From contig NZ_LNTY01000018.1 in NCBI RefSeq assembly GCF_001559595.1, forward strand, positions 1 through 64,000: a stretch of 64,000 nt of DNA. Reading direction: 5' to 3'. The stretch is from Enterovibrio coralii (GTDB taxonomy: Bacteria; Pseudomonadota; Gammaproteobacteria; Enterobacterales; Vibrionaceae). Numbering within the stretch: the stretch's first letter is position 1; each line of letters opens with the position of its first letter. The translations under genes were made by a program, and so were the position numbers. This document shows positions 25,366 through 61,442 of the stretch, piece after piece. Below the pieces are notes generated by a model. It worked only from the letters and a program-made list of their open reading frames with translations. It did not search any database and was not told the origin of the DNA.

Positions 25366-27110
25366 TTAGTCAGTGACGGTACATTGATATCTCGTGTCTG
25401 TTTCAGTCTTCGTTTTCAAACCATCACCGATACAGAAGGTTGACGTGATAGAGAGCTGACAGCTCGCTTGCCCTTTATCATCCATGGTGATTTTGCCGCT
25501 ATAGGAGTAATTAAGCGGGGTGCCATAAGTGGTGCCATGATAGCAGTAGCTGAGTACAGTTGACGAACCAGAGAACGAGACTTCTTTCAGTGTCTTGGTC
25601 TCTGCAATACCTATATTTCCTTGATACTCAGCCCCATTGTTAGGACCGCCACTGACGCTTTTCTTGCCACCTAGCTCTGAATCCCATGCAAGTGTGCCGC
25701 TGGCTTTGCTGCTACCAGCTGCAATGAAGTAGCTTCGGCTTTATTACAACGAATACCTAAGTAAGACCAGAAGCCACTCTTGCCCGCATAGGCGTAAAGA
25801 GTATTTTTTCCACCACAGGTAAAGGAAGACTCATCGTTGTCGTTGATGGTCGCCGTGCCTGACTTGAGATCAGTTTTGTCATCTTTGATCCAAGCATCGA
25901 GTGAAAATGTCTCGTTGTTTTCGTCATCACTGTCATCTGTCGTCGGAACGACAACTTGTATGTCATCTTCACCCGGCGGAATGGTCACTTTCACGCCAGA
26001 GTCGTTCAGCGTGATATCTTCGCTGCTGCTCCCGTATTTCACTTTCACGTTGGTACTGTAATCGCTGCCTGCCGTGGCGGTACCATTCTTCAACGCCAAA
26101 ATGACTTCTTTGCTGGCTTTCAACTCCTTGTCAAAGTTGACCGTGAAGGTGGCGTCTTGGCCTTCCGTTACTGTGTCACCCGATACACCCGTCACCTCGA
26201 CAATAGTTTCGCTTGGGAAAACCGTCGAGTCATAGCAATTATGTGTCTCTTGCGTATTGGTCGCCATCGCACTGATGCGGTTTGGGAACAAGCCGACTGA
26301 GACTTTTTCGCCGGTGGTTGGGTTCAGGCGCCATAGCCAAGTAGTATTAACATTACCGGTGACGTTCTGGTTTTTCGCTGCCACAAGAATTTGGTTGTTT
26401 TGATCCAGCGTCGCCGCGGTAACAAAATCGATAAAGTGGAAGGCAGGGAATTTCACCGACACCGGATTGGTGGACGTGTCCAGTTCGTACGTGCGGTTGT
26501 TAGTAATGAACAGCAGTTTGTTGTTGTAAAAAACAAAGTCGCCCCAACTCGTAAAGCCGCCAGCCTTGATGCCGTTGTCAAAATCGCCGAGCACTGTGGT
26601 TGAACCGTCGGATGTGTTGATGGTGAACACGCTGTTTTGATCGGAGGCGACAAGTGAGTTGGATGACGGATCAAACGCCATTCGATAGACGTTTTTACCG
26701 ACGTTTCCTACAACCACATTCTGGTTTGAGCTGTGATCATAGTAGGCAAGCTGATTGGTAAAGCTTTTCGAGGCGTGAAAGTCTAGGCTCTTGAACTCTT
26801 CACTGGTGACATCAGCTTCCAAGCCTTCAACATGGTAGGCTTCGGGTCTTGGTACGCTCACATAGTAGGTACGGTTGTTGACTTTGTCGTACGCCATGGC
26901 TGATGAGCTGAAAAGTGATTTGGATTCTTTTACTGCCCGCTCTTTTCCGACGTAAACACCAGTGAGCTTTTTGTCTTCTTGCAGATCAATCAAAAAACCG
27001 ACGTGACCTCGTCCTGCATTCATCGAATACACATTCCCGATGCAATTCGCATAAGCCCCAGCGGATGTAACAGATGCAAGAATGAAACTGGCGAGTATCC
27101 GTTTTTTCAT
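25366..27110 (-). CDS. Secreted propeller-like/Calx-beta protein, paralogue A, one frameshift
   Basis: A secreted protein of about 581 residues. It has a signal peptide (1-21, AYA|NC), a conserved N-terminal domain (22-310) with repeated strand-rich units that looks like a beta-propeller (SMNAGRGHVGFLIDLQ, YDKVNNRTYYVSVPRP, VYRMAFDPSSNSLVASDQ, GGFTSWGDFVFYNN), a Calx-beta domain (about 312-420, EGQDATFTVNFDKEL to NNETFSLDAWIKDD), and a cysteine-containing C-terminal domain (FWSYLGIRC ... CYHGTTYGTPLNYSYSGKI). The frame breaks near 25727; one added base gives EATFIAAGSS and extends the protein to the stop at 25366. It is nearly identical to paralogue B over the first 400 residues. Function unknown; calcium binding is expected for Calx-beta. 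Confidence 0.75.
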
Positions 27111-27182
27111 AAAACTTTCCTTTATTTATGTCCTTGGGTTTGAAGCTTCAGAGAGCTTAAATCCGTCAAAAAAAGGAAGTGA

Positions 27183-27198
27183 GTCTCGTCAATGAGAC
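27183..27198 (-). promoter_or_regulatory. Conserved inverted repeat upstream of paralogue A
   Basis: GTCTCATTGACGAGAC on the minus strand, 72 bp before the start codon. The same type of element stands upstream of all four propeller/Calx-beta paralogues, so a shared regulator site is proposed. Confidence 0.6.
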
Positions 27199-27544
27199 AT
27201 GGTTTATATTAGTGCATTCTTACTTTCTTAAATTAAGCCTTATTGTTGAATTAGTAAGACTTTCACGATGGGAGGACATTCTGTATAGCAGATGTAACCT
27301 AGGTTGATTCTCATATGTAAGAACCTCTGAAAATTAGAAGCTTAGAAATCCAGACGGAAGATGTATTTGTGGAGACAGGTTAAATAGACATGTCTTTGCT
27401 ATAGGTCTTGCAAATCATGCGATTGGTGTTTGCATGAGTAGGTGTGGGGCTTTGTCTGACATGGCAGAGTGAAAGGCACTGATAGCCATTTAGCTAATCA
27501 TTGCTCAGGTTTGGAAAGACAGCGTCACTTGATTTCAAAGATTT

Positions 27545-27571
27545 GCTCCCTCGTTTAGCGAGGGAGCATTT
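27545..27571. terminator. Hairpin between paralogue B and its downstream region
   Basis: Stem gctccctcg / cgagggagc with a tttag loop, 17 bp past the stop of paralogue B. The T-run (ATTTTTG) follows on the plus strand; on the minus strand only a short AAA follows, so the orientation of termination is uncertain. Confidence 0.6.
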
Positions 27572-27583
27572 TTGTCGTGGTGA

Positions 27584-29323
27584 CTAGTTACAACTGGTAC
27601 TTGTCGCGACTTTTCTGACACGGTTATCTGCACCATCACAGAAATCGTAATTCAGGCGCAAGTAGCACTGTTGGGTGCCATCCTCTTTGATCGTGATGGT
27701 ACCGCTATACACATAAGACAATGGCGTTCCTCGAACGTCACCGTGATAACAGCGGTCCCGAACCACAGAGCTACCGTTTACGGTGAGCGTTTTCAAGGTT
27801 TTCACCTCAGTGACACCAACATAACCTCTGATGCCGCCGTTGTAGCGGTTGTAGTCGGTTGTTGAGTTGCTGCCGTAGTCTGTCGTCCAGCTTACGCGGG
27901 TGTGCCTTGCGGAGCTGTGATACAGACCGGCAGCGTTAAAGTAAACATCCGATTTGCCACAATCCACACCAAAGTATGACCATGCGCCATCACCACCAGC
28001 AGACATTTGAAGCACAACGCCTGTGCTACATGCACCTTTCGGCTCATCATTGTCATTGATTGTTGCCGTCCCTGAGGCCTTGTCGCTTTGATCGTCTTTG
28101 ATCCATGCTTCCAATGAGAAGGTTTCGTTGTTCTCATCGTCATCATCATCGATCGTTGCCACCACGACTTGTATGCTGCTGACGCCAGGTGGGATCGTCA
28201 CTTTAACGCCAGTGCTGTTTAGCGTGACGTTTTCGCTGTCATCGCCATATTTGACTGTTACGGCAGCGCGGAAGTCTGCCCCCTCTGTTGCTGTGCCATT
28301 TTTCAATGCGAGGGTGACTTCTTTGCTTGCTTTCAATTCTTTGTCGAAATTGACTGTAAATGTGGCGTTTTGACCTTCTGTAACGGTGTCGCCAGATACA
28401 CCCGTCACTTCGACAATGGTTTCGCTCGGAAATACCGTCGAGTCATAACAGTTGTGTGTCTCTTGCGTGTTGGTTGCCATCGCACTGATGCGATTTGGGA
28501 ACAGGCCTACGGAAACTTTCTCGCCAGTGGTTGGGTTCAAGCGCCACAGCCAAGTGCTGTTGGTGTTACCAGTTACGTTCTGATTTTTTGCTGCCACGAG
28601 AATTTGGTTGTTTTGGTCCAGCGTTGCCGCGGTGACAAAATCGATAAAGTGGAAGGCAGGAAATTTTACTGATACTGGATTGGTCGAGGTATCCAATTCA
28701 TACGTACGGTTGTTAGTAATGAACAGCAGCTTGTTGTTGTAAAACACAAAGTCGCCCCAGCTGGTAAAACCGCCAGCCTTGATGCCGTTGTCAAAGTCAC
28801 CGAGTGCGGTTGTTGAGCCGTCTGATGTGCTGATGGTGAAGACGCTGCTTTGATCTGAGGCGATCAGCGAATTGGATGACGGATCAAACGCCATGCGATA
28901 AACGTTTTTACCTATGTTTCCTACGATCACATTTTGGTTTGAACCATGATCATAGTAGGCAAGCTGATTGGTAAAGCTTTTTGAAGCGTGGAAGTCTAGG
29001 CTCTTGAACTCCTCAGTCGTGACATCTGAAGCTAAGCCTTCTACATGGTAGGTTTCTGGTCTCGGGACACTCACGTAATAAGTTCGGTTGTTGACTTTGT
29101 CATACGCCATAGCGGACGAGCTGAAAAGCGATCTGGATTCTTTCAGCGCACGGTCTTTTCCGACATAAACACCAGTGAGCTTTTTGTCTTCTTGCAGATC
29201 AATCAAAAATCCCACATGACCACGGCCCGCATTCATCGAATACACATTACCGATGCAATTCGCATAAGCCCCAGCGGATGTTACAGATGCAAGAATGAGA
29301 CTGGCGAGTATCCGTTTTTTCAT
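27584..29323 (-). CDS. Secreted propeller-like/Calx-beta protein, paralogue B
   Basis: An intact 579-residue secreted protein. It has a signal peptide (1-21), the conserved N-terminal propeller-like domain (22-310), Calx-beta domain (about 312-420), and a C-terminal domain of about 155 residues with six cysteines (WSYFGVDCGKS ... RDRCYHGDVRGTPLSYVYSG ... CYLRLNYDFCDG ... STSCN). Residues 1-390 differ from paralogue A at only scattered sites, while the Calx-beta end and C-terminal domain have clearly diverged. Upstream sequence including the palindrome is also duplicated. It was probably made by a recent tandem duplication. It may act at the cell surface or outside; no enzyme motif was seen. 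Confidence 0.8.
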   Translation of the reverse strand: MKKRILASLILASVTSAGAYANCIGNVYSMNAGRGHVGFLIDLQEDKKLTGVYVGKDRALKESRSLFSSSAMAYDKVNNRTYYVSVPRPETYHVEGLASDVTTEEFKSLDFHASKSFTNQLAYYDHGSNQNVIVGNIGKNVYRMAFDPSSNSLIASDQSSVFTISTSDGSTTALGDFDNGIKAGGFTSWGDFVFYNNKLLFITNNRTYELDTSTNPVSVKFPAFHFIDFVTAATLDQNNQILVAAKNQNVTGNTNSTWLWRLNPTTGEKVSVGLFPNRISAMATNTQETHNCYDSTVFPSETIVEVTGVSGDTVTEGQNATFTVNFDKELKASKEVTLALKNGTATEGADFRAAVTVKYGDDSENVTLNSTGVKVTIPPGVSSIQVVVATIDDDDDENNETFSLEAWIKDDQSDKASGTATINDNDEPKGACSTGVVLQMSAGGDGAWSYFGVDCGKSDVYFNAAGLYHSSARHTRVSWTTDYGSNSTTDYNRYNGGIRGYVGVTEVKTLKTLTVNGSSVVRDRCYHGDVRGTPLSYVYSGTITIKEDGTQQCYLRLNYDFCDGADNRVRKVATSTSCN

Positions 29324-29713
29324 AACACTTTCCTTAATTTATGTCCTTGTGTGTGACGCTCCAGAGAGCTTAAATCCGTCAAAATAAGGAAGTAGGTCTC
29401 GCCAGTGAGACAGTGTTTACATTAGCGTATTATTTTCTTCTTAAATGAAGCCTTGTTGTTGAAATATTGAGAATAATGGGTCCGTCTGCCGTTCTGTTTA
29501 GTGCGTTGATTCTTGGTGAATTCTCATTATTGAGAGTGACTGTAATTGCACTTTAGGGAGAGGCCAATAAATGTTCTGTGTTGAAACCGTGTTGCTGAGA
29601 CTTGTGATACGTTGTTTTCGTGGTTAAATGGCGGGTATTACCTTGCCGACTTGTCATAAAAGTTTGGTGATAAACAGAGCTTGTCTCGCATTTCAATATC
29701 AAGAGGTATCTCT
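29324..29713. other. Intergenic region upstream of paralogue B
   Basis: About 390 bp. The first 170 bp are the duplicated upstream region with the palindrome. The rest separates paralogue B from the divergent glutaredoxin gene. No credible coding frame was found. Confidence 0.45.
29396..29411 (-). promoter_or_regulatory. Conserved inverted repeat upstream of paralogue B
   Basis: GTCTCACTGGCGAGAC on the minus strand, 72 bp before the start codon, the same distance as for paralogue A. It differs from the A copy at two spacer positions while both arms are unchanged. Confidence 0.6.
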
Positions 29714-29941
29714 TTGAAGCGTATCGTGTTGTATACCAGTCGAAACTGCCCACATTGCCAAACAGCAAAGCAGTATTTCGACAGTAAAAAAATTGCTTAT
29801 CGCCTGTGTGATGTTGGTTCGCCAAGGGGAAAGAAAGAGCATGCTGCATTGGGTGCTAGAGGTGTACCCGTGATCAAAATTGGCGATCAAATTCTTCATG
29901 GATTTTCATTAAAAGCGGTGGAGAAAGCCTTAAAATCCTGA
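29714..29941 (+). CDS. Glutaredoxin-family protein
   Basis: A 75-residue thioredoxin-fold protein with the redox motif CPHC (YTSRNCPHCQTAKQYF), the cis-proline segment GVPVIKIGD and a closing helix, a length normal for short glutaredoxins. The start is taken as TTG at 29714 because AAGAGGT lies six bases before it and the resulting sequence begins exactly at the first beta strand (KRIVLYTS). It precedes the AlaX-type gene by 26 bp and the two are probably co-transcribed. Confidence 0.8.
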   Translation: MKRIVLYTSRNCPHCQTAKQYFDSKKIAYRLCDVGSPRGKKEHAALGARGVPVIKIGDQILHGFSLKAVEKALKS

Positions 29942-29967
29942 TTTAAGATAGACGCAAAGGAGTGCTT

Positions 29968-30615
29968 ATGTCTGGTGTGGTGGAAAAAGTTTTTTGGCAG
30001 AATCCGTATCTCACGCAATTGGAAGCGACGGTTTCAAGTGTCGATGGCTGTGTCATTACGCTCGATAAAACGATATTTTTCGCGTTTTCGGGTGGTCAGG
30101 AAAGTGATGCCGGCACGATTGGTGGCTTCGTTGTTGAGCAGGCTGAGAAGAAAGATACTCAGATTTTCTACACGTTGCCTGAGAACCATACCCTCAACCC
30201 CGGTGATAGTGTTGACGTCGATATTGATTGGGCGCGACGCCATGCACTTATGAAACTCCATTTCGGGGCTGAATTAACCCTTTTGCTGATGATGAACAAA
30301 TACCCAGATCTTGAAAAGATCGGGTCACATATCGGCGAATCCCGCTCTCGCATCGACTTCATGTTTCCTGAATCTATCTGCGCACAACTCCCTTGGCTTC
30401 AGAACGCTCTCAACGACATCATCCACCAAAACCTTTCTATCGATAAAGGCTTCAGTGACGAAAAAGCGCAGCGACGTTACTGGAAAATAGACGGTTTTGA
30501 ACCTGTCTCTTGTGGCGGTACCCACCTGCACACAACGGGCGAGATTGGCGCATTGAAGCTGAAACGAAAGAACATCGGAAAAGGCAAAGAGCGTATCGAA
30601 ATCTCGCTTGCTTGA
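29968..30615 (+). CDS. Alanyl-tRNA editing protein (AlaX type)
   Basis: A 215-residue trans-editing hydrolase related to the editing domain of alanyl-tRNA synthetase, expected to remove Ser or Gly from mischarged tRNA-Ala. Visible family blocks are FAFSGGQESDAGTIGG, EKIGSHIGESRSRIDF and the zinc-binding SCGGTHLHTTGEIG. The first zinc motif appears as RRHALMKLHFGAEL instead of the canonical HxxxH. The ATG at 29968 follows AAAGGAG; the GTG at 29962 is less likely. Confidence 0.82.
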   Translation: MSGVVEKVFWQNPYLTQLEATVSSVDGCVITLDKTIFFAFSGGQESDAGTIGGFVVEQAEKKDTQIFYTLPENHTLNPGDSVDVDIDWARRHALMKLHFGAELTLLLMMNKYPDLEKIGSHIGESRSRIDFMFPESICAQLPWLQNALNDIIHQNLSIDKGFSDEKAQRRYWKIDGFEPVSCGGTHLHTTGEIGALKLKRKNIGKGKERIEISLA

Positions 30616-30649
30616 TGACATTGACCTTTAACGGTAAAAATTCTCTTTC

Positions 30650-30685
30650 ATATATGCCAAATCATATATATGATTTGGCATATAT
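30650..30685. promoter_or_regulatory. 36-bp perfect palindrome, probable ArsR operator
   Basis: A perfect inverted repeat with core TGCCAAATCA/TGATTTGGCA and AT-rich ends, 25 bp before the arsR start. Its position and symmetry fit an autoregulatory ArsR operator. Confidence 0.7.
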
Positions 30686-30710
30686 TTTAATGTATTCAAA
30701 GATTGTCCTA

Positions 30711-31055
30711 ATGACGCCAGTCGATTTCTATAAATGCCTCGCGGATGAAACCCGTCTTAAAACTCTGATGTTGTTGAATCAGGAAGGCGAGCTATGCGTT
30801 TGCGAGTTAATGGCAGCCCTCGATGAAAGCCAACCCAAAGTCTCTCGACATCTCGCGCAGTTGCGTAAGTGCGGTTTACTCACCGATCGTCGCCAAGGCC
30901 AATGGGTGTTTTACCGCATTAATGAAAACCTGCCTGCTTGGACGAAAGAGGTGGTTGCATTAACGACCAAATCTAATCAGGTATTCCTTGAAGAAAGTAT
31001 GCAACGTCTTTGTCGTATGGGTGATCGCCCAACGCGCGCGGGTGCATGCTGCTAA
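30711..31055 (+). CDS. arsR: ArsR-family arsenic repressor
   Basis: A 114-residue winged-helix repressor. The arsenic-sensing motif ELCVCELMAAL (ELCVCEL) is intact and is followed by the recognition helix region ESQPKVSRHLAQLRKCGLL. Arsenite binding to the paired cysteines should release it from DNA. A terminal CC (GACC) may add a ligand, as seen in some relatives. The start was set at 30711; the ATG at 30690 would add seven residues. It is followed by the ACR3 gene, with a second palindromic site in the gap. Confidence 0.88.
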   Translation: MTPVDFYKCLADETRLKTLMLLNQEGELCVCELMAALDESQPKVSRHLAQLRKCGLLTDRRQGQWVFYRINENLPAWTKEVVALTTKSNQVFLEESMQRLCRMGDRPTRAGACC

Positions 31056-31072
31056 AAATTTTAATTTAAGAC

Positions 31073-31094
31073 ATATGAAAAAACATATATATGA
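31073..31094. promoter_or_regulatory. Possible second ArsR site
   Basis: The gap between arsR and the ACR3 gene holds catatg-aaaaaa-catata, an imperfect inverted repeat sharing the ATATATG half of the main palindrome. It may be a secondary operator, or chance in an AT-rich gap. Confidence 0.35.
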
Positions 31095-31102
31095 GGTGAT
31101 AC

Positions 31103-32130: not shown

Positions 32131-32139
32131 AGATTCTAC

Positions 32140-32163
32140 GCCCCGATTCATCGGGGCTTTTTT
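32140..32163 (+). terminator. Terminator after acr3
   Basis: Stem gccccgat / tcggggc with T-tract, 10 bp past the acr3 stop. Confidence 0.85.
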
Positions 32164-32340
32164 GTGCGTTCTTCTGTGTCTATGAATCTATGCGAAGACA
32201 AAAGTGGCGATTAGTGTGATTCGAATCGATTCCAGAAAGGAAAAATATCAATGAATTTCATGTAAGTAAGGGCATTGTCTCACTTTTTGTACTATCCATA
32301 AGTATGCGGTGTCTGAAATCGGAGTGATTTAGGTGAAAGC

Positions 32341-34525: not shown

Positions 34526-35757
34526 TTAGCGTTTATTCGCACCAGACTTTTTCAGCAACTGACGCTTCAAACGGCGTTTTTCACCGCCGCGACCACCGCG
34601 CTTTTCGTGGTGCTCTCTGTCTGCATTGAGGTCCGGTTCAAATCCTTCCAGCCATTCTTGTGGCAATCGTTGGTCGATCAGGGTTTCAATCGCATTGAGC
34701 ATGCCTTCTTCTTCACGACTTACCAATGAAATGGCGTTGCCTGACTTTCCAGCGCGGCCAGTGCGGCCAATTCGGTGAATGTAATCTTCTGGCTGATGCG
34801 GTAATTCATAGTTGAAGACCGTATCGAGCGAAGGAATATCTAAACCACGCGCCGCCACGTCGGTTGCCACCAAGACCCTGACTTTGCCTTCTTTGAAGCC
34901 TTCGAGTGCGCGGTTACGTGCACCTTGTGTTTTTTCGCCATGAATCGCTTCGGCGGCGAGGCCGTCGAGCTTTAGCTCATTCGCCAGTGCTTCAGTGCTC
35001 TGGCGTGTTTTCGCAAACACCAGAACTTGTTGCAGATTGCGGCTTCCAATCAAGTAAGACAGCAGTTCGCGTTTACGCTTGCGGTCAACAGGGTGAACCA
35101 TTTGATTAACCGTATCCGCGGTGCTGTTGGCCGCAGCCACTTCGATTCGCACTGGGTTGTTCAGCAATCGATACGCCAAGTCCATCACTTGTTTTGGATA
35201 AGTGGCAGAGAAGAATAAGGTTTGACGTTCTGCTGGCATTTTTTTCATCAGACGTTTGATGTCAGAAATAAAGCCATATCCAACATGCGGTCAGCTTCAT
35301 CAAGCACCAACGCATCCAGACTGCTCAGGCTCAATGTGCCGATGTGCAGATGGTCGAGCAAACGGCCTGGTGTACCAACCACAATTTCAGGGCCTTTGGC
35401 GAGCTGGCTTTTTTGCGGATTGATATTCGCACCGCCATAAAGGGCAACACATCTTAGTGAGGTGTTTTGGCTGTACTCAGCCACTTTGTCGTAAACCTGT
35501 TGTGCAAGCTCTCGCGTTGGGGTAACCACGAGCACGCGCGTCGTTTTCTTCGCGCCATTTTCAAGAAGTTGGTGGATTAACGGCAAGGTAAATGCTGCTG
35601 TTTTTCCGGTACCTGTCTGCGCCGCACCCATTACGTCTTTGCCAGCAAGCACTTGTGGAATGGCTTGTTGCTGAATATCAGTAGGTTGTGAGTAGCCGAG
35701 AGAGGCCAGTGTCTCTTGCAACGTTGGGTGTAATAGCGAAAACGCGTTGTCAGACAT
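34526..35757 (-). CDS. rhlE: DEAD-box RNA helicase RhlE, one frameshift
   Basis: An ATP-dependent RNA helicase of about 410 residues. Motifs in order: Q motif (GYSQPTDIQQQAIP), AQTGTGKT, PTRELA, VGTPGR, DEAD, SAT, ATDVAARGLDIP and HRIGRTGRAG, with a basic C-terminal tail. The frame breaks near 35274; one added G (ATG GGC TTT ATT TCT) gives the standard RMLDMGFISDIKR segment. RhlE acts in ribosome assembly and mRNA turnover. It is monocistronic; the ATG at 35757 is the family start. Confidence 0.88.
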
Positions 35758-36074
35758 GAATGTAAATCCGGTCACCAAAAAGGAGCGCGAGTTTATCAGA
35801 ATGCTTGTCGATACCCAAGCAAGCTTAGCTGACCAGAGCAACAAGGTGTTTTGCTGGTCAAGCTACCGAGATAGAAAGGAAAAGTATGTACATAGTTGCC
35901 GAGAAAAAGCCGAGTAAATGCTTAACTTTGCGAATATAGGCATGCAAGGTGAACTGAAGGCAGCTAGCTTCCTGTAACTAGGGTGTTTTTGTTCTATGTT
36001 AAATATGTTTACCCGAGTGTGTTGAGAGTCTCCATTTCTTCGCGCTGTGGTATGAGTAACGCGAGGACACCGCC
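35758..36074. other. Divergent intergenic region
   Basis: About 320 bp between rhlE and the GCS2 gene. It contains an imperfect hairpin at about 35827-35864 (agctgaccag ... ctggtcaagct) of unknown purpose. No coding frame with a ribosome site was found. Confidence 0.4.
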
Positions 36075-41804: not shown

Positions 41805-43531
41805 TTAAGGCTTAGGACCCGTCACGCGTGCGTAGTCGACGTTCAAATCCGTGCTCTCCACACAACAAGACACGCTGGTGTTAGTGATTTGAATCCGCAA
41901 GTAATTCACGTTCGACGGTGCAGTGAAGTTGAAATTGATATTGGTCGAGTTACCTTCACGCAGCGAGAAGCTTCTAGAAGTGATCGTGCTGTTGTTGTAA
42001 CCATTGGTGATTCTGACTTCACCACCATGTGTGCCTCCAGTACCGCTGTTTTGCGCCCAGAATCTTGTCTGAACCGAGTACTGTTGGCCAGGAACAACAT
42101 TGAAGTATTGATAAACTGCTGCACCTTGTCCTTGGCCTGCCCAGTTAAAGTTGTAGGAGCCATTGCTGTGATTGAGGTTTCGTGCGTTCAGGCCGTTTTC
42201 AATTTCGCCCCACACACCGCGATAGTTCATCTCTGGGTTGCCGAGCAGTTGCATCACTTGATAATCGTCATTCGTGATAGTGACGGTTGCGGATTTCACA
42301 TCGCTTTGATCGTCTCTAAACCAAGCTTTGAGCGAGAAGGTTTCGTTGTTTTCGAACGTCGAGTCTTCAATGGTATTCACTTTCACTTTTAACCAACCGT
42401 TACCCGCAGGCACATTTACTTTGGTCCCTGTGCTGCTTAGCTCGCCGTTGTTGAGGTGCCATCTTCAAACTCGATAGTGACAGAGCCACTGTAGTCGCTG
42501 TTGATTACCGCGCTGCCATTGTTAAGCTGCAGATTGATGTCGAGTGCTGCGGCAGTGTCTTTATCAAAGTTCACCGTAAAGGTCGCTGTTTGCCCTTCTT
42601 CGACATTGGCTGTGGTGATACTGCCTACGTCGTTCACTTTCTCACTCGGGAAGACCGTTGGCGGATAACAGGTATGGTCCTCTTGCGTGTTCGTCGCGAG
42701 TGCACTTAACCTTGCGGGTATTAAGCCCACAGACGCTTTTTCGCCAGTGGCGGGATTAAGGCGCCAAAGCCAGGTGCTGTTGATATTGCCCGTGACATTT
42801 TGGTTTTTGGCTGCAACAAGCATTTGCCCGTTTTGGTCCAAGGTGGCACCAGTGACAAAGTCGATGTAGTGAAACGCTTTGATGGTAGCTGCGCCTGTTG
42901 ATTCGTTAATCACAAAGGTGCGCGTATTGCTGACAAACAGCAGTTCTCCTTTGTAATAAATGAAGTCGCCCCAAGACGTGAAGCCTCCACTAATCAGGCC
43001 CGAGTCAAAATCTGCGATTGGCGTTGTCGTGCCTGATGCAGGATCAATCGAGAAGATTTTCATGTTGTCCGAAGCGACGATTTGTCCTGTGGTAGCATTG
43101 AACGCCATTCTGAAAACAGCAGGCACTGTTCCTACAATCGTGTGAGTCTTTGTGTCAGGGTCATAGTAAGCAAGTTGGACGGGATCGTAAGTCGCTCCGT
43201 GAAAGCTGAGATTATTAAATTCATCATCACTGACAAAATTCTCTAAGCCTTCAACATGGTAGGTTTTGGGTCGAGGCGCACTCACATAGTAGATGCGATT
43301 ATTGATACTGTCATACGTCATTGCCGATGCGCTGAATTCAGCTCGCGATACCGCAAGTGCGCGGCTGCCATTGTATACCCCCGTGAACTTATTGGTTTCT
43401 TGAACATCAACCAATATCCCCACGTCGCCACGACCCGCATTTAAAGAGTAAACGTTACCTAGACACGCAGCGTAGGTTTGATGCGCAAAAACGGTTGAAA
43501 GCACCAATGTTGCTAACGTCGACTTTTTCAT
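41805..43531 (-). CDS. Secreted propeller-like/Calx-beta protein, paralogue C, one frameshift
   Basis: A secreted protein of about 575 residues. It has a signal peptide (1-20), the N-terminal propeller-like domain (SLNAGRGDVGILVDVQ ... GGFTSWGDFIYYKG ... ATLDQNGQMLVAAKNQNV) moderately diverged from A and B, a Calx-beta domain (about 310-430), and a different C-terminal domain of about 140 residues (NLNHSNGSYNFNWAGQ ... YSVQTRFWAQ ... NYLRIQITNTS) that looks like a carbohydrate-binding jelly roll. The frame breaks near 42451; one added A gives NNGELSSTGTKVNVPAGNG. The start is the ATG at 43531 (MKKSTLATLV); a longer frame from 43603 has no signal-peptide logic. Confidence 0.75.
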
Positions 43532-43631: not shown

Positions 43632-43647
43632 TCTCATAAACGAGATG
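43632..43647 (-). promoter_or_regulatory. Conserved inverted repeat upstream of paralogue C
   Basis: ATCTCGTTTATGAGAC on the minus strand, about 101 bp before the start codon, matching the GTCTC-N6-GAGAC element of the other paralogues at all but one arm base. Confidence 0.55.
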
Positions 43648-44015
43648 ACTCATAGATGAGAACAAAAGGAGGTGAAAAGTATGAGCACAGTTTATAGGGG
43701 TATTTCGATGCGATAAGTCGCCAGATTGAGAATGGCCATTTCGTGATTAAGAATCACCTAATATTCTTAATAAAATCATTGGTTAAGTGAGTATTCGAAT
43801 GTTGAGGTGATTATATCTATAAATCAAGGGTATAAATGCCTAGCGAATAAGTCGCTAAGTTTCGCAAGCGCGCAACTGTCGAAGGATTTTACATGTTTAA
43901 GTGCTCCCCTTCGTGTGAAAAGCGGAATTTATATCAAACGTGGTCTGAACCGTAATTTTAGAATTTGTCGGCCTTTTGAGAATTGATTCGATAAGTCGTA
44001 CCGATTGGTAGTCTT

Positions 44016-47056: not shown

Positions 47057-47758
47057 CTAAAACTTGTATTGAATACCCATGCCACCGGCAACTTCTGAGC
47101 CTGAAATCTTGCCAGAGGTTTCATAGTGGAAGGTGCCGGACAGGCTGATTTTCTCCGTTAAACCATATGCCCCGCCCAGCGCGAGTGCTTCCTTGCTGCC
47201 AGCAAAACCGATACCTGCGCCTACCGCAAACTCACCGTGTGTGACAAACGGTCTTGCGTTAGTCACTGCGTGCAGACCAGCACGAATACCATCCATGTGC
47301 TCTGACATTTCATCAAAACGGTGATTCATCTGCTTTTCAAGGTCGGCAACCAAATCCCCGGTTGTTGGTGTGCTTACACCAAAAGATGGGTCAACCGGCT
47401 CTGGACGGTCAGGTGTTGAATCGACATCTACGCCGAAGTCAGGGTCTGCTGGTTGTGGGCGGTCAGGTGCTGAGTCAACATCTACGCCAAAATCAGGATC
47501 CGCAGGTTGCGGGCGTTCTGGTGTGTAGTTCGGGCCGTCTCGGTCTGGCACATTGCTGTCAGGTTTTACGCCAAAGCTTGGATCCACAGGTTCTGGACGA
47601 GATGGCGTATTGTCTGGCATTGGGCGATCAACGGGCAATTCAATACCATTGTTAGGAATGTGCGGCACACTATTGTCGACATCTACATTGATGTTATTTG
47701 CCATCGCGCCAGCGGAGAAAAGGGTAGCAACAGACATTGCAAGTACAGTCTTTTTCAT
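47057..47758 (-). CDS. Small YadA-type trimeric autotransporter with proline-rich repeats
   Basis: A 233-residue surface protein. It has a signal peptide (1-20, AMA|NN), a repeat region (about 30-130) built from four units of the form RP(E/Q)P(V/A)DP(S/D)FGV with acidic spacers, a short coiled coil (DLVADLEKQMNHRFDEMSEHMDGI region) and a C-terminal YadA-like membrane anchor of about 75 residues ending in aromatic YKF. It is much shorter than usual trimeric adhesins and has no head domain. Function at the outer membrane unknown; adhesion is possible. Confidence 0.78.
   Translation of the reverse strand: MKKTVLAMSVATLFSAGAMANNINVDVDNSVPHIPNNGIELPVDRPMPDNTPSRPEPVDPSFGVKPDSNVPDRDGPNYTPERPQPADPDFGVDVDSAPDRPQPADPDFGVDVDSTPDRPEPVDPSFGVSTPTTGDLVADLEKQMNHRFDEMSEHMDGIRAGLHAVTNARPFVTHGEFAVGAGIGFAGSKEALALGGAYGLTEKISLSGTFHYETSGKISGSEVAGGMGIQYKF
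47340..47610 (-). repeat. Tandem repeats coding RPxPxDPxFGV units
   Basis: Four imperfect in-frame units of about 54 bp (one longer spacer after the first) encode the proline/aspartate-rich stalk. The second and third units are nearly identical, suggesting recent expansion. Confidence 0.75.
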
Positions 47759-53198: not shown

Positions 53199-53200
53199 GC

Positions 53201-54826: not shown

Positions 54827-55021
54827 ACCTACTTCTTATTAACTTGGGCGCGTACAACCTATTTTCGGCGTGTGTCGTTTTGGTTACAGAGTCATCAATA
54901 ATCCATGATACAAACAAAACTTCGGCTTACTTCACAACGAATTAGCGTATTATAACTGTTTTTATAAACAGTATTTTGGCGATAATATTCAAATTGGTGA
55001 ATATTGAATAAGGGTAAGGAA

Positions 55022-55396: not shown

Positions 55397-55403
55397 GGAC
55401 GTT

Positions 55404-55751
55404 GTGAAAACGATTAAGATAATCATTGCAGTGGTTGCGGTATTTGCGGCCAGTTCTTCCTATGCCTTTGAGGAAGAAAATTTTTTAGGTAATAACTCGG
55501 TACGTCAGGAAATTCGTGAACTGCAAAGACAAGTGAAGCAGTTAGAACGAAGAGTACGGCAGCTAGAGCGAGAACAAGGCGATTCTTCAATCTCTAGTCG
55601 CTGGGGATGTTACCTTGACGACTTGAGAGCAGGTGGTATTTACGGCACTGGCTACACCAAAGCAGAAGCAAAAGGGCGTGTCCTAGAAAAGTGTGCCGAA
55701 AAAGATGGCACCTGCTTTGAATCCAGCGTGAAGTGCAGTACTGAAGACTGA
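55404..55751 (+). CDS. Small secreted coiled-coil protein
   Basis: A 115-residue protein with a signal peptide (1-21, SYA|FE), a charged coiled coil (SVRQEIRELQRQVKQLERRVRQLEREQ region, about 33-60) and a C-terminal domain with four cysteines (WGCYLDD, LEKCAEKDGTCF, VKCSTED). I do not recognise the family; resemblance to periplasmic or spore-coat-like small disulfide proteins is only by composition. GTG start with GAGGA upstream; probably co-transcribed with the VOC gene. Confidence 0.65.
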   Translation: MKTIKIIIAVVAVFAASSSYAFEEENFLGNNSVRQEIRELQRQVKQLERRVRQLEREQGDSSISSRWGCYLDDLRAGGIYGTGYTKAEAKGRVLEKCAEKDGTCFESSVKCSTED

Positions 55752-55914
55752 TTCTCAAGCTCGACATTGGGTGACGTAACTTTTTGGGAAATCTGACAAA
55801 TAAGTTGGACAACGCCATTTTATCATCGGACCGTCACCGAAATTCAGCACTTCTCTTCTACGCTGGTTAAGCCTTGCCGTGTATGGCTAATTCAATCAGC
55901 GTAGAGGACATTTC

Positions 55915-57153
55915 ATGACAGGCTACAACCCGCATTTTCTCAATGGTTTCACCATTGAATTTCCCAAGTTGTCTTCAAATCTCAGCATGACTGTCGCAAG
56001 GAGTGACGAATTAAGAGAAGGCTACATAGCCGACTATCCCAATTTCAGCATTGTGATCAACGCTGATGAAGATAAGCGTTCTGCTGCCGTGGTGGCCTTC
56101 CAGTTTGACCAGACGTTGTTTAAATCCACCAAGCGGCGCGGAAAATGGCGAATGGATTATAGGTTCGATGATTTTGATGTGCTGGGTCCTGAGTACTATT
56201 ACCAAAATCCTTACGACCGAGGTCATCTGGCTAGACGCTCTACGGCGGGATTTGGTCAGACGCAAACCGAAGCGCAACGTAATGCGAACGAAACCTTTTA
56301 TTACACCAATGCCGCGCTGCAACACGCCAACCTCAATCAAGATGAATGGCTCTCGCTCGAAGAGTACGCCCGCAATTTGCAAGATGCACAGGATGGAAAA
56401 GTTCTGAGCTTCAACGGCTGCATTTATGGCGACACCGACCGTTCAATTACGCCAGATGGTTTACCTATCGCTCGGGTTCCTGCGGGCTTTTTCAAGGTGC
56501 TGGCGTTCGTGAATCAAGAAGGAGAGTTGGAAGTTCGCGCCTTTATCCAATACCAAGACCGCGAGGCACTTCGTGATAAACAGGCATCTCGGCGTGTTGG
56601 CTATGACAATGTGGTGTATCAAACCAGCTTGATGGAAGTGGAAGAACTGACTGGGCTGATCTTTGACCCGAAAATGTATTCGGCCAATCCTTTGTTCTTC
56701 AGTAATCAACCGGACGGTAATCCGATGAATGTGGTTGATACACCAGAACGCATTGAGATCACGCGAAACGAAGACATTATCTCGCCAGGGCAAACTCGAA
56801 AGACAATTCGCGATGATGATGTAGACGTTTACCTCATTGCTGCCTTGGTCAATCCAGATGGTGTGGATGCAGGAAATGAATGGGTGAGCATGATTAACCT
56901 GTCAGGCAATGAGATTGATATGACAGGCTGGACCTTGGTTGATAGAGCCAGTAAGCGCGAACAACTTTCTATCACCAAACTTGCGCCGGGTGCCTCTCAT
57001 GTTCAGCACCTTAGTGTGATTCAGTTAAACAACAATGGTGATACCCTTGAGCTGTACGATGCCGATGGTGCTCGAATTGACTGGGTGATCTACCAAGAAA
57101 AAGAGGTCAAAGCAGGAAAACCAGTGCTCTTTATGGAGCCCACCTCCTTATAG
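55915..57153 (+). CDS. NUC1-type DNA/RNA non-specific endonuclease with C-terminal lamin-tail-like domain
   Basis: A 412-residue protein. The nuclease domain (about 25-255) has the active-site motif DRGH (101-104) and the metal-ligand asparagine in FYYTNAALQHANLN. After a linker, residues about 300-400 form an Ig-like lamin-tail domain (EWVSMINLSGNEIDMTGWTLVD ... NNNGDTLELYDADG). No signal peptide is present, unlike secreted homologues, so export would need another route or the protein acts inside. Start ATG 55915 has GAGGAC upstream. A terminator follows. Confidence 0.8.
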   Translation: MTGYNPHFLNGFTIEFPKLSSNLSMTVARSDELREGYIADYPNFSIVINADEDKRSAAVVAFQFDQTLFKSTKRRGKWRMDYRFDDFDVLGPEYYYQNPYDRGHLARRSTAGFGQTQTEAQRNANETFYYTNAALQHANLNQDEWLSLEEYARNLQDAQDGKVLSFNGCIYGDTDRSITPDGLPIARVPAGFFKVLAFVNQEGELEVRAFIQYQDREALRDKQASRRVGYDNVVYQTSLMEVEELTGLIFDPKMYSANPLFFSNQPDGNPMNVVDTPERIEITRNEDIISPGQTRKTIRDDDVDVYLIAALVNPDGVDAGNEWVSMINLSGNEIDMTGWTLVDRASKREQLSITKLAPGASHVQHLSVIQLNNNGDTLELYDADGARIDWVIYQEKEVKAGKPVLFMEPTSL

Positions 57154-57170
57154 TTTTAGTGCTTTTTGAT

Positions 57171-57194
57171 AAGTCCGCGTTGGCGGGCTTTTTC
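57171..57194 (+). terminator. Terminator after the nuclease gene
   Basis: Stem aagtccgc / gcgggctt with a T-tract, 18 bp past the stop. Confidence 0.75.
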
Positions 57195-57272
57195 ATTTTC
57201 ATCAGGCATCGAATTCCCTCTCTCAGAGACTTCAATACCTTATAACGCAGAGTCAGAAAAACTTACGGTCTC

Positions 57273-57316
57273 TATCAAGTGCGAGACAGTCTTGGCTGCC
57301 AATACATGCATATAGT
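57273..57316 (+). promoter_or_regulatory. Promoter element of GTPase paralogue 1
   Basis: TATCAAGTGCGAGACA (57273-57288) is followed 22 bp later by TATAGT (57311-57316). The same pair, with a 21-bp gap, precedes the second GTPase gene. The upstream box also forms GTCTC-N10-GAGAC with the preceding bases. Confidence 0.55.
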
Positions 57317-57367
57317 GGAAAGGTGTCCGGTTCAGCAGTGAATCTAGCAAAGAGGAGAACCACCACC

Positions 57368-58408
57368 ATGCACATGGAAAACAACGTAGACACCCAAATT
57401 TTTAGGGCGTTAATGAAGGAAGATAAGGGTGATACGGCAAAGGTTCAGCCTCACGCATTGTCTTTTTTCGCTGAAGTCAGCCAGCACATCAGTGCTTCTA
57501 CCACCATCGAAGATGACTACAAAATACGTATTCAACAACGCATTGCCGCGTTGTCTTCTGAGTCTCTCAATATCTTAATGGTAGGTGCGGAAAACGTCGG
57601 TAAGTCGACCACGCTGAGTGCATTGTTTGGCGAACATGATTGGACAAATGATGCCCCAAATAAAAGTATGATTGTCCGTAACGATCTTGCGCAGCTAACG
57701 CTGTGGGAAGCGAGATTGCCAAGTGACAGTGATAATCCGCAACAAGCGACTAATGAATTAGGTTCATTGCTCTCTGAAAGTGATGAACAAGGCAGACCCT
57801 TGGTGGATTTGGTGCTGGTGGTGTTAGATGCAACCAGTAATAACCTCGAAAGCTGCTATCGAGATATCAGCGACACACTGGTACCAATGCTCGGCAGACA
57901 AACCGAAAACCGTCTGATGGTATTGATGAATAAAGCGGACAAAGTGGCGCAAAACATCAGAGGCACTGCTTCTAACCAATTGATGCCCCTTGACGCGGAA
58001 ATCTGGCTGGATTGCACGGCGGCAACGATTCGCTATCGCTTGATCCACAACACGGGTGTGCAAACGCGCCCAATCGCTTACAGCGCGTTGGCAGGTGACT
58101 CACCAGCAAATCGTCCTTACAACCTGATGAAAGTCGTTGCCCGCATGATGGTGACACTGCCAGAAGAGAAACGTCTGCTTTTGTTGAATCAGCCATTTAC
58201 CCAAGGTGACGACTACTGGCGTGATCATGATGACAGGCTCTTATACCTGCAAAGTGTCGAAAATCTGTGCTTTGATAACCTGCATCTTGGTGCGAGAGAT
58301 GGCGACAGATTTGGTGGTCAGCTAGGTGCGTTCCTCGGCAGGAATGGACGTGCACTGGGCGAGATCGTTTGTGATGCCTTAAGAAAGCAATTTGGCATTA
58401 GCTTGTAA
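57368..58408 (+). CDS. P-loop GTPase-like protein 1 with altered switch region
   Basis: A 346-residue GTPase-fold protein. The P-loop is GAENVGKST (73-81) and the G4 motif MNKAD (187-191). The G3 DxxG that should follow a conserved Trp is replaced by LTLWEARLPSD (110-120), so nucleotide hydrolysis or switching may be lost. The C-terminal segment (about 310-345, RFGGQLGAFLGRNGRALG) is shared with the downstream paralogue. Function unknown. GAGGAG lies upstream of the ATG at 57368. Confidence 0.72.
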   Translation: MHMENNVDTQIFRALMKEDKGDTAKVQPHALSFFAEVSQHISASTTIEDDYKIRIQQRIAALSSESLNILMVGAENVGKSTTLSALFGEHDWTNDAPNKSMIVRNDLAQLTLWEARLPSDSDNPQQATNELGSLLSESDEQGRPLVDLVLVVLDATSNNLESCYRDISDTLVPMLGRQTENRLMVLMNKADKVAQNIRGTASNQLMPLDAEIWLDCTAATIRYRLIHNTGVQTRPIAYSALAGDSPANRPYNLMKVVARMMVTLPEEKRLLLLNQPFTQGDDYWRDHDDRLLYLQSVENLCFDNLHLGARDGDRFGGQLGAFLGRNGRALGEIVCDALRKQFGISL

Positions 58409-58425
58409 CCGTCAATCGTTCTGTA

Positions 58426-58452
58426 AAAAGCCAGCGAAACTGCTGGCTTTTT
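58426..58452 (+). terminator. Terminator between the two GTPase genes
   Basis: Stem aaaagccagc / gctggctttt with T-tract; the two genes are thus separate transcripts. Confidence 0.8.
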
Positions 58453-58485
58453 ATTGCGTTGCGTTCGAGAAAAATCGCTCTTTAC

Positions 58486-58528
58486 TATCAAGAGCGAGAC
58501 AAATTCCATCGATTGCTTTGCGTATAGT
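58486..58528 (+). promoter_or_regulatory. Promoter element of GTPase paralogue 2
   Basis: TATCAAGAGCGAGACA (58486-58501), then TATAGT (58523-58528), matching the element before paralogue 1 at 15 of 16 box positions. Confidence 0.55.
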
Positions 58529-58575
58529 TGCAGATGGTTAAAAGGAATAAGTCGTACTCATTGAGGTAAATTTCT

Positions 58576-59544
58576 ATGGAAAGCATTCAGTCATTTTCTC
58601 GCCAACTCGCGCTGGAAGTTAGCCAGTCTTCGCTGATCGATGAATTCAAGAAGGCGGTTTTACAACTTCGCATGCATGAGCTTGAAGGGCATCCACTCAA
58701 CGTCATGTTTGCTGGTCCGCAGGGCGTAGGCAAAACTGCGACGATAAAAGCCATGTTTGGTGAGGCGTTTACAGCATCTGGTGAGCTGGATGTCACAACG
58801 GGCATTTTACGCTACCAAGCGGGTGAGTTAGTGGTATGGGATTATCCCGGGCTGAGTGGCAACAAGGATCACGACAAGCTGCTTGAAATGCAAATTGGGG
58901 CCACCTTGAGTGAAAACGATGCTGATGGCAACCCGCTGATTGACATGGTGGTTGTCGTTATGGATGCGGCTGAAAGGAATTTGAACGACGGGTATCGGTT
59001 GATCACTGAGGTGATTGTTCCTGCGCTAGGCAGTGAGTTTGATAATCGACTGGTCGTTGCGTTGAACAAGATTGACGTAGCCAGTTATGCCTATGACTGG
59101 GATTTCGTGATGGACTCGCCGTCGCCTGAAGTGGAAATTTGGCCTGAGAGCACAGCGACACTGCTGCGTCATTGCTTGTTGGATGAGTCTGGGCTGGAGA
59201 TCGCGCCTGTCTGCATCGCGGCAGAGCTGACGAGGCAAGGTGAATCAACCCGTCCATTTAACCTGATGAAGTTGATGGCAGCGATGCTAGAAAAGTTGCC
59301 CGCAGAGAAAAAACTCACCTTGATCGATACGCCTCTCAACCAACAGTCACTGGCGTGGTTTGATGGGGATGACAGAAGAAACTATCTTGCTGAGGTTGAA
59401 AACACCTTGTTTGACAGCCTATACGAAGGCTCAAAAGACGGCTCACGTTTTGGTGGTTTACTGGGAGCCTATTTAGGTAAACAGGGTAGAGAGCTGGGCT
59501 ACTTGCTAAGACGAAATTTAAGAAAATCATTTAACCTTGCATGA
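58576..59544 (+). CDS. P-loop GTPase-like protein 2
   Basis: A 322-residue GTPase with complete motifs: GPQGVGKT (47-54), DYPG (89-92), NKID (164-167). The C-terminal RFGGLLGAYLGKQGRELGYLL segment is shared with the upstream paralogue and may be an amphipathic membrane- or partner-binding helix. It belongs to a YfjP/HSR1-type group without a precise name. Own promoter and terminator; the pair arose by tandem duplication. Confidence 0.75.
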   Translation: MESIQSFSRQLALEVSQSSLIDEFKKAVLQLRMHELEGHPLNVMFAGPQGVGKTATIKAMFGEAFTASGELDVTTGILRYQAGELVVWDYPGLSGNKDHDKLLEMQIGATLSENDADGNPLIDMVVVVMDAAERNLNDGYRLITEVIVPALGSEFDNRLVVALNKIDVASYAYDWDFVMDSPSPEVEIWPESTATLLRHCLLDESGLEIAPVCIAAELTRQGESTRPFNLMKLMAAMLEKLPAEKKLTLIDTPLNQQSLAWFDGDDRRNYLAEVENTLFDSLYEGSKDGSRFGGLLGAYLGKQGRELGYLLRRNLRKSFNLA

Positions 59545-59560
59545 AGCATTGAATGAAATA

Positions 59561-59587
59561 AAAAGCGAGCTATCTGCTCGCTTTTTT
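59561..59587. terminator. Bidirectional terminator
   Basis: Stem aaaagcgagc / gctcgctttt with T6 tail, between convergent genes. Confidence 0.85.
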
Positions 59588-59612
59588 GTATCCATTTAAC
59601 GGTAGATTGAAT

Positions 59613-61442
59613 TTACCGGCAGGTTGAATTTCGCTGAATGGCGTAACGGGTAAATATCCCATCACAGTAAGCCTCTTCCGCTACGACCTGACATGAAATG
59701 GGACCCTTATTGATGGCGTCATACACGAGGTTAAAAGTGAAGTGGGAATACGCACCACCACAAGAGTGGTTGCCGGGTTTATGCATCGTGATATTACTGT
59801 TTACTTGATAAACATTCTTGATTATTTCAGGACCGACTGAGTCACCCACGCCGACAGGGTTTAAATATTCGATGCTATCTGCTTGTGTGCCCTGTTCGGT
59901 ATTAATGATCGAACTAAAAGCGTTTACGCCGTATAAATTGTTTGAAGTATTATATTCGTCCAGGTAATACCACGTCACTGAACCAGAGATCTTATTGCCT
60001 TGAACGGCATAGTCATCAATAAAGCTCAGAACCCCTGTTTCACAGTCTAGTTTGACTTGAAAATCGTCTCGACTCTCACCTGGAATTCGTGATGAAAAGG
60101 TGGCTTGTGGGGTGAAATTCTCGCCGCATAGCCCTGCATATTCGTTCTCGTCATCAATGATGGTCATGGTGGCTTTCGTCAAACTGTCGCGATTGAGATC
60201 AGACCAAACAGCCAAACGGAAGGTCTCATAAGGGACCTCATAATAGTGGTCATCCCTCACCGGTACTTTTACCGTAATGCTTTCCGTACCGGCTGGAATG
60301 GTCACGCGTTTTTGACGGGTAATCTCACTGCCACCCATCACGACTTCTGTGCCTAAATCAATGGCCGCTGAGTTCGCAAAATAGTCATAGGTGCCGCTTG
60401 AGTAAATGGCGGTAACATCCTCAAGTGCGAGGTTAATGTCAGTGTCTTGCTCGTAAACGGGGTTAAAGGTGATGGTGAATACTGCATCTTCCCCTTCGTT
60501 CACTTCACCGCCTTTCACCTCGATTTCAGGTCCAGGTTCTTCGTCTTTAAACACCGTCCTGTCATAGCATTCGTGAAGCTCTTGAGTGTTTGTGGTGAGT
60601 GCGCTGATTCGAGTTGGGAATAAACCTACAGGTTGTTTTTCCCCAGTTTCCGGTTTCATACGCCAAAGCCATGTGCTGTTGACGTTGCCGTTTACGTTCT
60701 GATTTTTCGCCGCAATCAATACCTGACCATTCTGATCTAAGGTGGCTGCAGTAATGAAGTCAGTGAAGTGGAAGCCAAAGAGTTCATGTCCGATTGGGTC
60801 AGTATCCAAATCTAGGGTGTAAGAGCGGTTGTTGGTGATATAAAGCAACTGATCTTTGTAGAAAACAAAGTCTCCCCAGCTTGTGAACCCGCCGTTTCTT
60901 AAACCCTCATCAAAGCTGCCTTTGACGTTGACGCGGGCGTTATTGGGGTTGATGGTGAATACCTTTGCTTGATCGGAAGCAACCAATTGGTTTTGTGTCG
61001 GGTCAAAAACCATGCGGTAAACGTTGCGCGGTATACCACCCACGATCACATTGACACCTGACGCATGGTCATAATATGCCAACTGATTTTGCATCACGTC
61101 TGACGCATGAAAATCAAGGTTCTTGAATTGGTCGGAACTGACGTCGCCTTCGATATTATCGACGTGGTATTCAGTTGGACGAGGAGAGCTTACATAATAT
61201 GTGCGGTTTGTGGTTTCATCGTAAGCCATCGCGGATGCGCTAAATAATGCTTTCGACGCTTTTATTGCGCGGTCACCGTTATAGGTGCCAGAAAGCCTTT
61301 GAGTCTCTTTCAAGTCCATAATGAAACCTTCATGACCGCGTCCTGCATTCATGGAGTACACATTGCCAAAGCAATTCGCATTGACGAGCGAAGGCGTGGT
61401 TGCTGCAGCGAGTACCAGACTTGCAATTATTTTCTTTTTCAT
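59613..61442 (-). CDS. Secreted propeller-like/Calx-beta protein, paralogue D
   Basis: An intact 609-residue secreted protein: signal peptide (1-22, VNA|NC), propeller-like domain (SMNAGRGHEGFIMDLKE, GGFTSWGDFVFYKD, ATLDQNGQVLIAAKNQNV), Calx-beta domain (about 310-435, with VFTITFNPVYEQDTDINLAL), and an unrelated C-terminal domain of about 165 residues with six cysteines (SFIDDYAVQGNKISGSVTWYY ... GGAYSHFTFNLVYD). It is more diverged than A and B. It shares the upstream palindrome, though imperfectly. Function unknown. Confidence 0.8.
   Translation of the reverse strand: MKKKIIASLVLAAATTPSLVNANCFGNVYSMNAGRGHEGFIMDLKETQRLSGTYNGDRAIKASKALFSASAMAYDETTNRTYYVSSPRPTEYHVDNIEGDVSSDQFKNLDFHASDVMQNQLAYYDHASGVNVIVGGIPRNVYRMVFDPTQNQLVASDQAKVFTINPNNARVNVKGSFDEGLRNGGFTSWGDFVFYKDQLLYITNNRSYTLDLDTDPIGHELFGFHFTDFITAATLDQNGQVLIAAKNQNVNGNVNSTWLWRMKPETGEKQPVGLFPTRISALTTNTQELHECYDRTVFKDEEPGPEIEVKGGEVNEGEDAVFTITFNPVYEQDTDINLALEDVTAIYSSGTYDYFANSAAIDLGTEVVMGGSEITRQKRVTIPAGTESITVKVPVRDDHYYEVPYETFRLAVWSDLNRDSLTKATMTIIDDENEYAGLCGENFTPQATFSSRIPGESRDDFQVKLDCETGVLSFIDDYAVQGNKISGSVTWYYLDEYNTSNNLYGVNAFSSIINTEQGTQADSIEYLNPVGVGDSVGPEIIKNVYQVNSNITMHKPGNHSCGGAYSHFTFNLVYDAINKGPISCQVVAEEAYCDGIFTRYAIQRNSTCR

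Follow-up and report, generated by a model that had tools for sequence, protein, structure and literature searches.

The 64,000-nucleotide stretch analyzed here (the window), positions 1 to 64,000 of contig NZ_LNTY01000018.1 of Enterovibrio coralii, carries four related genes for secreted proteins and raises the question of what such a family does for the cell. The genes, A (25366–27110), B (27584–29323), C (41805–43531) and D (59613–61442), all lie on the minus strand, at the coordinates that a sequence-only reading had given. Our answer, to which we give a probability of roughly 0.6, is that they belong to a family of exported proteins, spread through the genus, that serve the biofilm matrix or adhesion and are governed by the regulator VpsR with cyclic di-GMP. 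To our knowledge, the matrix proteins of Vibrio cholerae are well characterised, but hardly any outside Vibrio are.

The four genes share the order of signal peptide, propeller, Calx-beta domain and tail, as proposed earlier, while the reading frames of A and C are each broken in two. B is intact with 579 residues, divided into a signal peptide (1–22), a propeller (about 23–300), a Calx-beta domain (about 304–428) and a six-cysteine tail (about 429–579). D is also intact, with 609 residues in the same order and a divergent six-cysteine tail. A follows B in its order and is frame-split in the tail near 25.7 kb; its first frame stops at 25671 and the remaining tail runs in another frame to a stop at 25366. 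This second-frame piece, searched alone, scores 78.9 bits against the six-cysteine tail profile. C, with a jelly-roll tail like a carbohydrate-binding module, is split inside the Calx-beta domain near 42.4 kb, where one open reading frame stops at 42437 and the next begins at 42413. Over the first 310 residues or so, identity to B is 95% for A, 59% for C and 62% for D, and 137 columns are invariant across all four, far beyond chance.

Reading the regions upstream of A–D brought out the palindrome TCTCA-N4-TGAGA. We scanned 37 upstream regions, four from the window and 33 from named loci, at spacings of 0 to 20. With at most one mismatch the palindrome occurs in 20 of the 37, whereas 30 shuffles gave 0.1 on average and never more than 2, and each of the other 20 spacings occurs in 2 of the 37 at most. 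The consensus of 24 aligned sites is TGTCTCATTAATGAGACA. A same-loci control found the palindrome at 21 of 36 family genes and at 5 of 295 other genes (Fisher P 3e-19), the 36-gene set differing slightly from the 37 regions by start-codon and length rules.

Within the 64-kb window, all seven sites with at most one mismatch precede A–D. Chance would give 1.79 per window, and none of 100 shuffles reached seven. The predicted VpsR boxes of A at 27184–27197 and of B at 29397–29410 each have one mismatch and start 87 bases before the start codon. A second box starts 212 bases before it in both genes, at 27309–27322 in A (one mismatch) and at 29522–29535 in B (perfect). C has two boxes with one mismatch each, at 43632–43645 and 43648–43661, starting 114 and 130 bases before its start codon, and D has one at 61554–61567 with one mismatch, starting 125 bases before. 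Five of the seven copies in the own genome carry a site, including one of the three copies outside the window. A sigma-70 promoter scan at A and B gave one site, on the other strand, with 3.7 expected.

The palindrome leads to VpsR in two ways. One is its place in the genomes. Among the six perfect sites of the own genome, one precedes a gene whose product matches VpsR in the PDB with E 2e-150, while the NCBIfam profiles gave this gene no name. The same genome thus encodes the regulator and bears a VpsR-type palindrome upstream of all four window genes. A vpsR orthologue is present in 17 of 18 genomes of the genus, and the palindrome, with at most one mismatch, lies at −280 to −284 of vpsR in all 16 readable loci; the 17th locus could not be anchored.

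The other is a published site. The V. cholerae adhesin gene craA has the VpsR site TTTCACAATTGAGA, as given in the available part of the source (PMC6890996), and this site fits the palindrome with one mismatch. The V. vulnificus VpsR homologue BrpR is described in the accessible text as binding a palindrome whose fifth C and twelfth G are needed (PMC8268162); they fit the inner C and G of the palindrome here, if the BrpR site has 16 bases. According to the portion available of PMC7841849, VpsR itself binds cyclic di-GMP and increases the expression of the type II secretion genes that matrix proteins require; it is also the chief regulator of CraA.

From this one published site and the place before vpsR, we take the palindrome to be that of VpsR. 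VpsR-type regulation of the family is well supported as a prediction from the promoters. Because they point to the VpsR biofilm regulon, the earlier verdict that no known system name fits was too pessimistic. Perfect sites elsewhere precede two genes with RTX calcium repeats (L116 and L152) and an EAL-domain gene (L118, frame-split in two).

Several observations weigh against this assignment. No site was found in 17 of the 37 family upstream regions at up to one mismatch and in 10 of the 37 at up to two. The propeller-only gene and one split copy of the own genome have none at one mismatch, and three relatives from outside the genus lack a site within 400 bases even when two mismatches are allowed. 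Discovery and counting of the motif used the same regions, and the family genes are related by descent; the P value therefore makes them look more independent than they are. Perfect palindromes outnumber a reversed control only about twofold in the own genome (6 versus 3), and a slightly narrower pattern gives 12 versus 5 in three relatives. Several perfect sites lie beside genes with no evident biofilm link, which we take to encode a TonB receptor, an oxidoreductase, transport proteins and an arginine-pathway enzyme. On the protein side, A, B and C stay below the gathering score of 27 bits of the Calx-beta family PF03160 and D has no match to it. Since perfect sites are only about twice as frequent as the control, the palindrome proves regulation at no single place; its strength is in the concentration at the family and before vpsR.

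These counts leave some room for a different regulator of the same type, which would bind the palindrome and place the family in another programme of surface change. VpsR binding is only predicted, the consensus comes from the present analysis, and the literature provides a single matching site, with one mismatch, in a source available in part. The site is nevertheless kept before vpsR in every readable locus, and the BrpR site, as far as its source was available, is a palindrome with C and G at fitting positions. We regard such a regulator as rather improbable, and VpsR as the better candidate.

What do the genes encode? An AlphaFold2 model of B, built with 30 family members, has a mean predicted local distance difference test (pLDDT) score of 80.5 and shows 22 short strands over residues 26–284, then a sandwich and a beta-rich tail. 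In blocks of ten residues, the pLDDT is 53–61 at residues 21–60, 62–93 in the propeller from residue 61, 87–96 in the Calx-beta domain up to residue 420 and 68–91 in the tail. A Foldseek search with the model matched its middle to isolated Calx domains of NCX1, CALX and integrin beta-4, with template-modelling (TM) scores by target of 0.63–0.70. It matched the front to the kelch-type propellers KLHL12 and designed SAKe6 at 0.46–0.48; many top rows cross domain borders with poor TM scores and have little meaning.

On this model, residues 304–428 or so of B adopt a predicted Calx-beta sandwich fold. The profile scores for PF03160 are 17.3 bits in A, 18.4 bits in B (E 0.0023) and 17.7 bits in the second piece of C, and the relative L071 exceeds the cut-off with 31.8 bits. 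Acidic loops are visible in the Calx-beta sequence. The cysteines C23 and C292 of B, which bound the propeller, are invariant in all 30 aligned rows and probably form a disulphide clasp that closes it. The residues preceding the first cysteine form no lipobox by reading, and a lipoprotein was rejected.

A well-described family of known function behind the propeller would have told against the sequence-only reading, and none emerged. The propeller matches no Pfam family in the window proteins. The nearest families, DUF4394 (PF14339) and DUF6923 (PF21959), are of unknown function and match weakly in 11 and 3 of 17 diverse propellers at E up to 1, with a best E of 1.1e-6 for DUF4394; none of the four window proteins matches either. 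L071 reaches 21.9 bits for DUF4394 against a curated cut-off of 29.6. Searching the PDB by sequence with the propeller and the six-cysteine, SW and 450-residue tails (tail names coined in this analysis, like W3 below) gave no convincing match, and a viral fold library returned only generic propellers and sandwiches.

The tails differ between the paralogues. We fetched 49 distinct family proteins, of which 43 have a tail long enough for clustering, and found six tail types and a propeller-only form. The clusters are W3 with 13 members, six-cysteine with 12, SW with 6, jelly roll with 5, a 450-residue domain with 4 and a second Calx-beta domain with 2. L065 joined the six-cysteine cluster as a thirteenth member on its cysteine pattern, and C joined the jelly roll through its separate piece. 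Outside the clusters, four proteins are tail-less, and splits interrupt two others (C and L005). Profile comparisons between clusters give probabilities of at most 6%, except for 17% between six-cysteine and L065; the profiles are thin and few tail folds were modelled, so some types may be remotely akin.

In the window, three tail types had been proposed, one in A and B, a jelly-roll-like one in C and a third in D. The jelly-roll likeness stands and, on this evidence, the third type does not. The D tail scores 17.8 bits against the profile of the A/B-type tails, above the best shuffle at 12.4 bits (1934 listed of 2000 shuffles), and shares their six-cysteine pattern. D entered the six-cysteine cluster through the BLAST row of another protein, none being listed with D as the query, and its modelled tail is poorly resolved (block pLDDT 24–49). 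The D tail thus appears to be distantly related to that of A and B, which leaves the window with two tail types. Homologous tails would have counted against the sequence-only reading; such homology is seen for D versus A and B by sequence profile, and not for C or the other types.

The C tail resembles a jelly roll, with CBM_4_9 at 23.1 bits (E 1e-4, cut-off 25.9) and choice_anch_C at E 1e-6, both below the curated cut-offs. The C tail piece is 89% identical to L063, and the jelly-roll tail profile (A9) has a weak PDB match to a glucanotransferase jelly roll (E 0.004). Such likenesses would suit secreted proteins that bind polysaccharide or mucin for nutrient capture or host contact, with the tails as carbohydrate-binding modules and the propeller as a carrier. 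A gene that we take from its sequence to be chitinase-like also lies near a W3-type gene in Grimontia indica and Enterovibrio norvegicus. A nutrient or host-contact role is unlikely in our view, since the upstream box ties the family to a biofilm regulator and the neighbours of A–D have no common nutrient theme on reading. Moreover, no catalytic family exceeds its cut-off in the four window proteins (scanned in five pieces), 17 propellers and 10 tails or whole relatives, and we rejected an enzyme on this ground.

The family is largely confined to its genus. The own genome has seven copies, four in the window and three on another contig. In 61 genomes including the own, 15 have a match and all belong to the own genus (15 of 18), with none of the 43 genomes of other genera. 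The positive genomes have 1–8 matches, some of them fragments, and near-full copies number seven at most. Two peptide patterns run against the named collection gave the 33 loci mentioned above, all from Enterovibrio or Grimontia. These searches and the tail types described above bear out the constant front and variable tail far beyond the window.

Farther out, 19 of 394 genomes of the order match. Outside the genus, three of them (G085, G398 and G334) carry strong full propellers with a best E below 1e-96, and the remaining 15 matches are partial at 27.5 bits or less. In the class, 11 of 369 genomes match, the best outside match being partial with E 1.8e-12. L070, from outside the genus, has a propeller, a Calx-beta domain and a tail like W3 (32% identity to the first W3 row), so this domain order may be older than the genus, unless transfer explains it. 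L139, an 861-residue protein in a genome of another family, has a propeller match of E 1.8e-25, four Calx-beta matches and a tail. The B propeller is unmatched at E 1e-5 among phages (50,697 records) and plasmids (72,556 records), and carriage by phages or plasmids was rejected.

Propeller-only relatives (L054 at 11188–12123, and L007) lie 5–9 kb from a W3-type gene in several genomes. In them the propeller may act alone.

The constant front with an exchangeable end is thus real in that six tail types and a tail-less form exist, and misleading in that the ends are not freely exchanged. The propeller tree requires 9 changes of tail type, near the minimum of 7 for eight groups and far from the shuffled mean of 30.5. 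Free shuffling of tails was rejected, and the tails appear mostly to follow the propeller lineages.

It is the front that is sometimes traded. The tandem pair of Enterovibrio norvegicus FF-33 has propellers 99.6% identical, Calx-beta domains 72.7% and tails 41.7%. The second gene and its likely DSM 15893 orthologue share 97.6% in the tail, 97.5% in the Calx-beta domain and only 82.3% in the propeller; a second orthologue pair gives 94.0% in the tail and only 83.6% in the front. A and B have a similar profile: compared in steps of 60 bases, their DNA is 78–97% identical from the start codon across the propeller and into the beginning of the Calx-beta domain, and 42–73% downstream. Gene conversion that trades the front between paralogues while the Calx-beta domain and the tail stay would be the simplest reading. 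The FF-33 case is not the rule, as the fronts are more alike than the tails in 107 of 159 same-type pairs.

This pattern also bears on plain gene-family expansion, in which the tails would merely drift, the frame-split copies would be on their way out and the paralogues would be redundant. Three of the seven own-genome copies are frame-split, namely A, C and one elsewhere in the genome, G005 and G014 have truncated or split copies, and two of the three genus genomes without the family are small (2.1 and 2.6 Mb). Tails kept so much better than fronts in the two orthologue pairs speak against mere drift. The splits may reflect the assembly, because ordinary window genes are also broken into adjacent frames at 5579–7167, 17752–19302 and 34526–35844, presumably a transporter, a dipeptidase-like gene and a DEAD-box helicase. 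Those of A and C are likely base errors of the assembly, and 44 of the 45 family proteins fetched from outside the window are unsplit, with L005 as the exception. We judge plain expansion very improbable.

The proposed role as exported matrix or adhesion proteins would work as follows. At high cyclic di-GMP, VpsR would act at the upstream palindromic box and turn the family genes on together with other matrix genes. The Sec signal peptide would take the products out of the cytoplasm, and the outer membrane would be crossed probably via the type II secretion system, whose secretin is present with a score over the cut-off. The shared propeller, probably closed by the invariant cysteine pair, would be a common part for docking or self-association. 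The Calx-beta domain, which binds calcium in known members, would stiffen the link between the propeller and the tail.

The tail would be the binding part that differs between paralogues, carbohydrate-binding-module-like in C and six-cysteine in A, B and D. A cell with several paralogues could attach its matrix to various partners. The step from regulation to a matrix role, as well as binding by VpsR, the export route, calcium dependence and the ligands, we infer from these sequences and models. Front trading with tail keeping suggests that the front probably has one shared partner, which is open to direct search.

A bolder version, which we put forward tentatively as short of an even chance, is that Enterovibrio and Grimontia build their biofilms from a toolkit of many paralogues that replaces or stands beside RbmA, RbmC and Bap1. 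There, a propeller that conversion can homogenise within a genome would dock to the same matrix partner, six or more tails would fasten the matrix to different surfaces, and VpsR with cyclic di-GMP would switch all of them together.

The window also holds other genes. One, at 47057–47758 on the minus strand, encodes a small secreted protein that combines proline-rich repeats with a YadA-type membrane anchor (PF03895, above the cut-off with 30.2 bits) and is a candidate short trimeric surface protein. The earlier remark that no anchoring gene lies beside the family is thus inexact, as this one is in the window, and still fair in that no link to A–D is evident. Beside D, at 57323–59544 on the plus strand, are two related GTPase-like genes (MMR_HSR1), apparently a tandem duplication. 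At 55915–57153 on the plus strand, a non-specific DNA/RNA endonuclease is fused to a lamin-tail domain.

Elsewhere the palindrome points to additional candidates among RTX and unnamed secreted proteins. In two genus genomes, RTX calcium-repeat-like proteins, L152 (1616 onward, on a Pfam basis) and L040 (3214, 0-based), have it about 90–100 bases upstream, perfect in L152 and with one mismatch in L040, and are candidate matrix proteins. A conserved secreted protein in two genus genomes (L150 and L154, the latter with no Pfam match) has a perfect palindrome about 180 bases upstream. In the own genome, L116 on contig C6 encodes a frame-split RTX-repeat protein with a perfect palindrome upstream; its first piece has no Pfam match and to us looks like an adhesin retention module. 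The family thus offers testable candidate matrix or adhesion genes for a whole genus of marine bacteria, and a promoter signature by which to locate them.

How does the family compare with known systems? The closest published architecture is that of BapP (EAR30327) of Pseudoalteromonas tunicata, a calcium-dependent biofilm adhesin of a marine gammaproteobacterium, with a signal peptide, an N-terminal beta-propeller and one or more Calx-beta domains according to the available part of its description (PMC12153261). The likeness is one of described architecture. The window proteins have a propeller of about 280 residues, one Calx-beta domain each and a variable tail, and lack the tandem Calx-beta/BIg repeats of BapP-type adhesins. 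L139, with its four Calx-beta matches, bridges the window architecture and the BapP-like one as far as the latter is described there.

RbmC, Bap1 and RbmA of V. cholerae are likewise exported modular matrix proteins with sugar-binding domains under VpsT/VpsR control, and Bap1 and RbmC are related with several domains in common, as the accessible portion of PMC7841849 has it. Unlike RbmC and Bap1, the window proteins have no VCBS, FG-GAP or jacalin-like lectin Pfam match up to E 1. The family also differs from all three in having up to seven near-full paralogues per genome and six tail types per genus.

The RTX adhesins of the CraA/LapA type share a VpsR site, upstream of craA (PMC6890996), and Calx-beta-like domains, in LapA (PMC12153261), both as given in the parts of these sources at hand. 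Those adhesins are large, type I secreted and equipped with a retention module, whereas the intact tailed proteins here have about 540–610 residues (one type about 875) and a Sec-type signal by reading. The window proteins have no Pfam match to RTX, and for the LapA domain PF20579 B and C score 10.3 and 15.2 bits, below the cut-off of 27.

No prior description of the family is among the literature matches listed, which cover titles and abstract starts and leave most subscription journals uncovered. In summary, exported matrix proteins are known as a kind from RbmC/Bap1, BapP and LapA, while this family, its multi-tail design, its traded front and its predicted regulation appear new within the searches made.

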